A DNA stretch of 64,000 bases, taken from Obelidium mucronatum. Taxonomy: Eukaryota; Chytridiomycota; Chytridiomycetes; Chytridiales; Chytriomycetaceae. Shown here one piece after another: positions 56,592 to 57,861 of this stretch. The stretch spans positions 124,001 through 188,000 of the forward strand of contig JAIVFH010000062.1 of NCBI GenBank assembly GCA_025765595.1. Reading direction: 5' to 3'. The position numbers were made by a program, and so were the translations under genes. The notes under the pieces are model-generated. The model ran no database searches. It was not told the DNA's origin and was given only the letters and a program-made list of their open reading frames with translations. Every line of letters starts with the position of its first letter. Position 1 is the stretch's first letter.

Positions 56592-57861
<1,270 letters not shown>

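Follow-up and report, generated by a model that had tools for sequence, protein, structure and literature searches.

A probable four-nucleotide coding micro-exon in the Ran gene of the chytrid Obelidium mucronatum

The Ran locus

The small GTPase Ran is encoded in a 64,000-nucleotide stretch of DNA from Obelidium mucronatum (GenBank assembly GCA_025765595.1, contig JAIVFH010000062.1, positions 124,001 to 188,000 of the forward strand). This stretch, analyzed as a whole, is referred to as the window, and coordinates are given in its numbering. The gene covers 56592-57861 on the plus strand, and its joined translation yields nine exons, a protein of 214 amino acids (aa) and eight GT-AG introns of, in order, 72, 69, 97, 87, 81, 93, 67 and 59 nucleotides (nt). 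One predicted exon consists of the four bases TGCT, which complete the DTAGQ motif. The elements of the locus are the following, with exons 1 to 3 and 5 to 9 taken from the joined translation.

Exon 1: 56592..56628, plus strand, ends in phase 1
Exon 2: 56701..56775, plus strand, carries the P-loop GDGGTGKT
Exon 3: 56845..56920, plus strand, ends with WD and AC, the first two bases of the Thr63 codon
Intron A: 56921..57017, plus strand, 97 nt, phase 2, GTACGT...TTGTAG
Putative micro-exon TGCT: 57018..57021, plus strand, 4 nt, last base of Thr63 and the Ala64 codon in DTAGQ (switch II / G3)
Intron B: 57022..57108, plus strand, 87 nt, phase 0, GTATGT...TTATAG
Exon 5: 57109..57146, plus strand, begins GGTCAGGAAAAG
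Exon 6: 57228..57369, plus strand
Exon 7: 57463..57590, plus strand
Exon 8: 57658..57788, plus strand
Exon 9: 57848..57861, plus strand, ends with DDL and the stop codon
Decoy donor GTCAAA: 56925..56930, plus strand, joined to 57109 gives DTYGQ, in frame but improbable

That the gene encodes Ran had been proposed from the sequence alone, and the comparison with other proteins bears this out. Three Ran models from the Chytriomycetaceae, those of Rhizoclosmatium globosum, Podochytrium sp. JEL0797 and Chytriomyces hyalinus, are each 96% identical to it. The protein's place in the Ran family follows from full-length similarity and from the G motifs. PF00071 matches with 161.9 bits, and Ran/Gsp1 chains in the PDB are matched down to an E value of 4.9e-124. 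An acidic C-terminus is typical of Ran, and the protein ends in AEEDDDL. In the genome (48.3 Mb, 694 contigs) the Ran region had a single DNA match, and among the candidates scored, which were the best ones only, no further Ran-like copy turned up. Ten pattern matches to Ran in viral contigs included no relative, and an Rfam scan of 55000-59000 gave no match.

The TGCT segment and its splice signals

Exon 3 ends at 56920 in GGGACAC, directly followed by GTACGT, and exon 5 starts at 57109 with GGTCAGG, directly preceded by TTATAG. Between the two lie 188 bases, and DTAGQ requires T-GCN from among them. The TGCT at 57018-57021 has CCACTTGTAG directly before and GTATGTATTC directly after it, and is thus flanked by a 3' splice site, TTGTAG, upstream and a 5' splice site, GTATGT, downstream. 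When it is joined in, the protein reads WDTAGQEKF; when it is left out, the frame shifts. We speak of a micro-exon for an internal coding segment of at most 30 nt with AG before and GT after it, a description that fits TGCT. Segments of 1-30 nt bounded by AG and GT occur four times in 56921-57108 (4, 8, 18 and 24 nt), each starting at 57018, and only the one of 4 nt preserves the frame. The sequence-only reading had claimed a four-nucleotide segment that completes DTAGQ. At the level of the DNA this is confirmed: TGCT lies exactly at these positions in Ran, as a segment predicted to restore the frame, with splice signals on both sides.

Chance occurrence was assessed with 20,000 dinucleotide shuffles of the interior of the interval. 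AGTGCTGT was present in 0.32% of the shuffles and AGTGCNGT in 0.5%, or in 0.28% when both introns had to be at least 50 nt long, while AGTGCNGTRHGT was present in 0.02%. Of the 20 bases ahead of the acceptor triplet of intron A, 17 are pyrimidines, and intron B contains no AG ahead of its own acceptor.

Two-exon joins and splice-site scores

The sequence-only reading had further held that no two-exon solution supplies the four bases. This is right as far as DTAGQ is concerned. We listed 45 stop-free joins of a GT, GC or AT donor at 56880-57107 to an AG or AC acceptor up to 57124 with an intron of at least 20 nt, and since none of these reads DTAGQ, the other two-exon joins were rejected. What had been overlooked is an in-frame GT-AG join of a different kind. 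Moving the donor four bases on, to GTCAAA (56925), lets GTAC be read through, and joining to exon 5 gives DTYGQ (expected mRNA sequence GACACGTACGGTCAG). Of the 45 joins, no other with GT-AG ends preserves both the length and the residues on either side. On this reading, the region would contain two exons separated by a 184-nt intron (56925-57108), with the alanine truly replaced by tyrosine.

To judge the splice sites, a set of 56 introns from the same genome was used, since repeats swamped the enrichment of donor hexamers in the window as a whole, with true donors ranking anywhere from 2 to 236 of 256. Fifty introns come from 19 of 20 small-GTPase loci, which were hand-picked from 100 Pfam matches leaving out near-identical copies, and six are the other introns of Ran. 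The set was drawn by our own spliced aligner with GT-AG ends and a length of at least 45 nt as the only requirements; one locus (L059) yielded no intron, and three weakly aligned loci, L061 (score 108), L047 (157) and L049 (189), were retained. Intron length in this set has a median of 71.5 nt with quartiles of 60 and 88. The decoy donor GTCAAA scores lower than all 56 introns, and its C at position +3 occurs in none of them (A 27, T 18, G 11, C 0). At positions +3 to +6, donor B (GTATGT) is unbeaten by any collected donor, and donor A (GTACGT) ranks 45 of 56.

A protein-guided spliced alignment can produce either structure, depending on what an intron costs. With eight DTAGQ queries the aligner included the micro-exon as long as an intron cost 2-5; at costs of 6, 7, 8, 10 and 12 it went over to DTYGQ, and for three queries it did so at 14 as well. 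With the public R. globosum protein as query (P0003), which itself carries DTYGQ, it chose DTYGQ at all three costs tried. Thus, by switching to DTYGQ at higher cost, the aligner reproduces the R. globosum model.

The two-exon structure with a genuine tyrosine has in its favor that it is in frame and GT-AG, that a relative's model carries the same residue, that the aligner prefers it at costs of at least 6, and that introns of 184 nt or more exist in the collected set. We nevertheless regard it as very unlikely. Apart from the poor donor, it turns the AG-TGCT-GTATGT arrangement into a coincidence of 0.02-0.3%, and the tyrosine of R. globosum and the cysteine of Podochytrium match what an in-frame reading of GTAC and GTGC donors would give. 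Moreover, neither DTYGQ nor DTCGQ occurs in any of the 165 sampled Ran proteins that are not named as chytrids, as described in the following.

Ran models of related chytrids

The sample comprises 181 Ran proteins, combined from two overlapping searches (the best 120 of 7934 and the best 120 of 2974 matches). The public Ran of O. mucronatum has no row of its own in it and may sit inside a 90% cluster. DTAGQ is found in 173 of the 181 proteins (172 by pattern, and P0064 with DTAGQEKL). The exceptions read as follows.

P0003, Rhizoclosmatium globosum: DTYGQ
P0004, Podochytrium sp. JEL0797: DTCGQ
P0006 and P0105, Chytriomyces confervae: DTAVRAFGQ and a longer read-through
P0016, Spizellomyces 'palustris': DTAVSNAVGQ
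P0049, Entophlyctis: DTYVAGQ
P0052, Borealophlyctis: DTCLSTKAPFQGQ
P0022, Vigna: segment missing

Seven of the 16 rows named as Chytridiomycota (six of 15 species) depart from DTAGQ, compared with one of the 165 other rows, unnamed ones included; Fisher's test gives p = 8e-8 for this chytrid excess, calculated on rows that are not independent. The taxonomy was verified for all 15 chytrid names or genera.

The exceptions seem to follow a pattern. A tyrosine or cysteine after DT would correspond to a GTAY or GTGY donor that follows GACAC and is translated in frame. Where VR or VS comes after DTA, a GTRAG donor following GCN would be the source. P0003 and P0004 run straight from the donor side of A to the acceptor side of B, as a gene finder would make them by jumping over a hidden micro-exon; judged from these protein models, Rhizoclosmatium and Podochytrium would have the same pair of sites as A and B. 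The odd residues in chytrid Ran models, whether Tyr, Cys or insertions, may accordingly be explained as annotation artefacts. As the model errors are patterned and the aligner reproduces DTYGQ, the relatives likely share the micro-exon, and their public models are likely misannotated. The errors also suggest that each position may occur alone in other chytrids, A in Entophlyctis and B in Spizellomyces. Ordinary gene finders would skip an exon of 4 nt, and the residue given for the relatives in public databases thus appears to be wrong. The earlier remark that exons this short are rare and usually missed by annotation agrees with these anomalies and with two published reports (PMC8831610; PMC12940212).

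Finally, the bases could have been displaced by a sequencing fault, or the locus could be a pseudogene. A single assembly stands behind the sequence, which speaks for such a possibility. We consider it extremely improbable, as the remaining Ran exons are open and conserved, the genome search gave one match with no further copy among the candidates scored, and the models of the relatives break at the same codon. The specific case of a fault that sets TGCT at an exon end was rejected, because no TGCT lies beside 56920 or 57109 and because the relatives share the break.

Splicing of the micro-exon

Taken together, we think it very likely that Ran of O. mucronatum contains a constitutive coding micro-exon of 4 nt between two short introns that are removed sequentially by intron definition. 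The sequence, the frame, the signals, the lack of a second short in-frame segment and the anomalies in the models of the relatives are observed; the actual splicing, the order of removal, the constitutive use and the presence in other Chytriomycetaceae are inferred. Several observations weigh against this structure. When whole 9-mers are scored, both donors fall into the lower quarter of the collected set (A 14 and B 11 of 56 from the bottom), which is due to C and T at position -1. Intron A is longer than 46 and intron B longer than 42 of the 56 introns, and five introns reach at least 184 nt, so that a single long intron is compatible by length; intron length on its own does not discriminate between the readings. 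The YTRAY motif nearest to the acceptor lies about 48 nt (A) and 51 nt (B) away; of the six other Ran introns, five contain such a motif, and it lies closer there, at 4-39 nt. This is a mild point. C. hyalinus (P0005) is annotated with DTAGQ, and a protein search aimed at further DTYGQ or DTCGQ cases added 61 proteins (from the best 120 of 2974), all of which have DTAGQ.

In the proposed mechanism, two spliceosomal introns would lie 4 nt apart, A in phase 2 within the Thr codon and B in phase 0 after the Ala codon. Each would be recognized across itself, and since both are short, intron definition can handle each of them separately. The splice sites are probably too close for simultaneous occupation, and A and B would hence be excised one after the other. 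A strong tract of pyrimidines in A and a consensus donor in B may compensate for the missing exon sequence. If the gene model is right, both introns are present together and would have been gained or kept independently, at least in this lineage.

Inclusion of the micro-exon predicts the mRNA sequence GACACTGCTGGTCAG and skipping predicts GACACGGTCAG. In the skipped form, phase 2 would meet phase 0, and a stop is reached at codon 127. Since this would shift the frame and lose most of the GTPase, the exon would act as a frame keeper under strong selection. The same property could make the exon optional, in that skipping gives a frame-shifted, truncated mRNA and lowers Ran output as a regulated switch. 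This idea overlaps with constitutive inclusion because it needs the same exon. A regulated micro-exon has been reported in Trichoderma Xlr2 (PMC11121469); on the other side, the human exon of 4 nt in MPC1 is described as constitutive (PMC9929638), and we find a regulated switch quite improbable here. Also speculative, and highly doubtful, is that the exon was kept in switch II of several chytrid lineages as a control point via incomplete inclusion. Were this so, zoospores or stressed cells, for instance, might include the exon only in part; the resulting frameshift and decay would reduce Ran and couple splicing capacity to nuclear transport.

Known micro-exons and significance

Very small exons are already known from plants, animals and fungi, and what looks new in the constitutive micro-exon proposed here is the Ran gene and the chytrid lineage. 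Among the open-licence papers listed for micro-exons together with chytrids or with Ran/GSP1, none appears to report a chytrid micro-exon or this Ran exon. The closest fungal case is the exon of 1 nt in Fusarium CYP621A, which is likewise frame-essential, located in a conserved motif (PKG), missed by annotation and inferred from conservation; it differs in size, in belonging to a P450 gene and in being confirmed by sequence reads from the SRA according to its authors, whereas the Ran exon has 4 nt and is known from DNA (PMC12940212). The human MPC1 exon shares the length of 4 nt, not a multiple of three, and is minigene-tested; separate lariats were detected for its two introns, and splicing persisted when the exon was shortened to 0 nt (PMC9929638). 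Plant micro-exons (up to 15 nt) are comparable in being conserved and misannotated, and the artefact described there, a neighboring exon extended with protein length unchanged, is the one seen in DTYGQ; unlike the Ran case, they have RNA-seq and RT-PCR evidence (PMC8831610). In Arabidopsis APC11, splicing of an exon of 1 nt was proposed to combine intron definition with recursive splicing (PMC4674806). Its intron definition and stepwise removal are what we propose for Ran, although this exon is from a plant, has 1 nt and was shown experimentally (PMC4674806).

With 4 nt between them, positions A and B also qualify as a near intron pair, that is, two positions less than 32 nt apart in one gene (PMC2891723). 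Such pairs are described as mutually exclusive within one gene, and the paper treats coexistence of both introns as very unlikely (PMC2891723). In Ran, as far as the gene model holds, DTAGQ needs both introns; if the model is right, two introns are shown to coexist 4 nt apart. The locus would be a case of a 4-nt exon held under strong constraint in one of the core genes of eukaryotes, that of a nuclear-transport switch protein. Since Ran is nearly invariant here, it could be used to test micro-exon finders and to study how tiny exons are spliced in fungi with short introns.

Other small GTPases of the genome

Introns in or adjacent to DTAGQ were found in several of the 20 small-GTPase loci, none of them at Ran position A or B. 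The Rab-like locus L045 (L045:371-460) has a phase 0 intron between T and A, one base off intron A of Ran and hence at a different site. In L042, L043, L046 and L049 an intron lies immediately before the D of DTAGQ, in L044 after the Q, in L051 in the G, and in L050 two codons further on. In L049 the aligner drew an exon of 11 nt, which disappeared with a different query or intron cost.

A Rab28-like locus (L047:300-480, corresponding to 37300-37480 of contig C54) may contain an exon of 5 nt, ACACC, at L047:374-378. It was drawn at intron costs 6-22 between introns of 54 and 53 nt, and its splice signals are weak (donor GTTTTT, acceptor TGAGAG). With ACACC the loop has 22 residues, compared with 21-24 in three relatives, and the public O. 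mucronatum Rab28-like model has a loop of 29 residues, in agreement with a single intron; these lengths were counted by eye. The small-GTPase matches are often paired or tripled with equal or near-equal scores (contigs C43/C307/C691, C19/C500, C96/C408, C28/C331, C10/C154 and C100/C481), as if these contigs were uncollapsed haplotypes or recent duplicates.

Neighborhood of Ran in the window

Directly upstream of Ran, a PIG-F match lies at 56206-56415 (within the region 55680-56418). The public Podochytrium model P0004 fuses a PIG-F domain to Ran in a protein of 351 aa, which is probably an annotation error and suggests the same gene order there.

Further away, three tandem arrays at 61190-62823, 43141-43692 and 46534-47096 have units of 245, 220 and 214 bases, respectively, with 96-97% matches, and share the translated phrase NCVPTIHCAGTGC, which is read from the plus strand in the first array and from the minus strand in the second and third. 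Overlapping tandem arrays with units of 20, 42, 47, 118 and 339 bases occupy 29717-30868, most of them centered on the inverted repeat ACCGCCGTAGGCGGT. At 23598-28400 there are four similar reading frames with a phrase resembling TDINAIPDELLTEIL, which look like a tandem family; the frame at 25939-26988 matches leucine-rich repeats.
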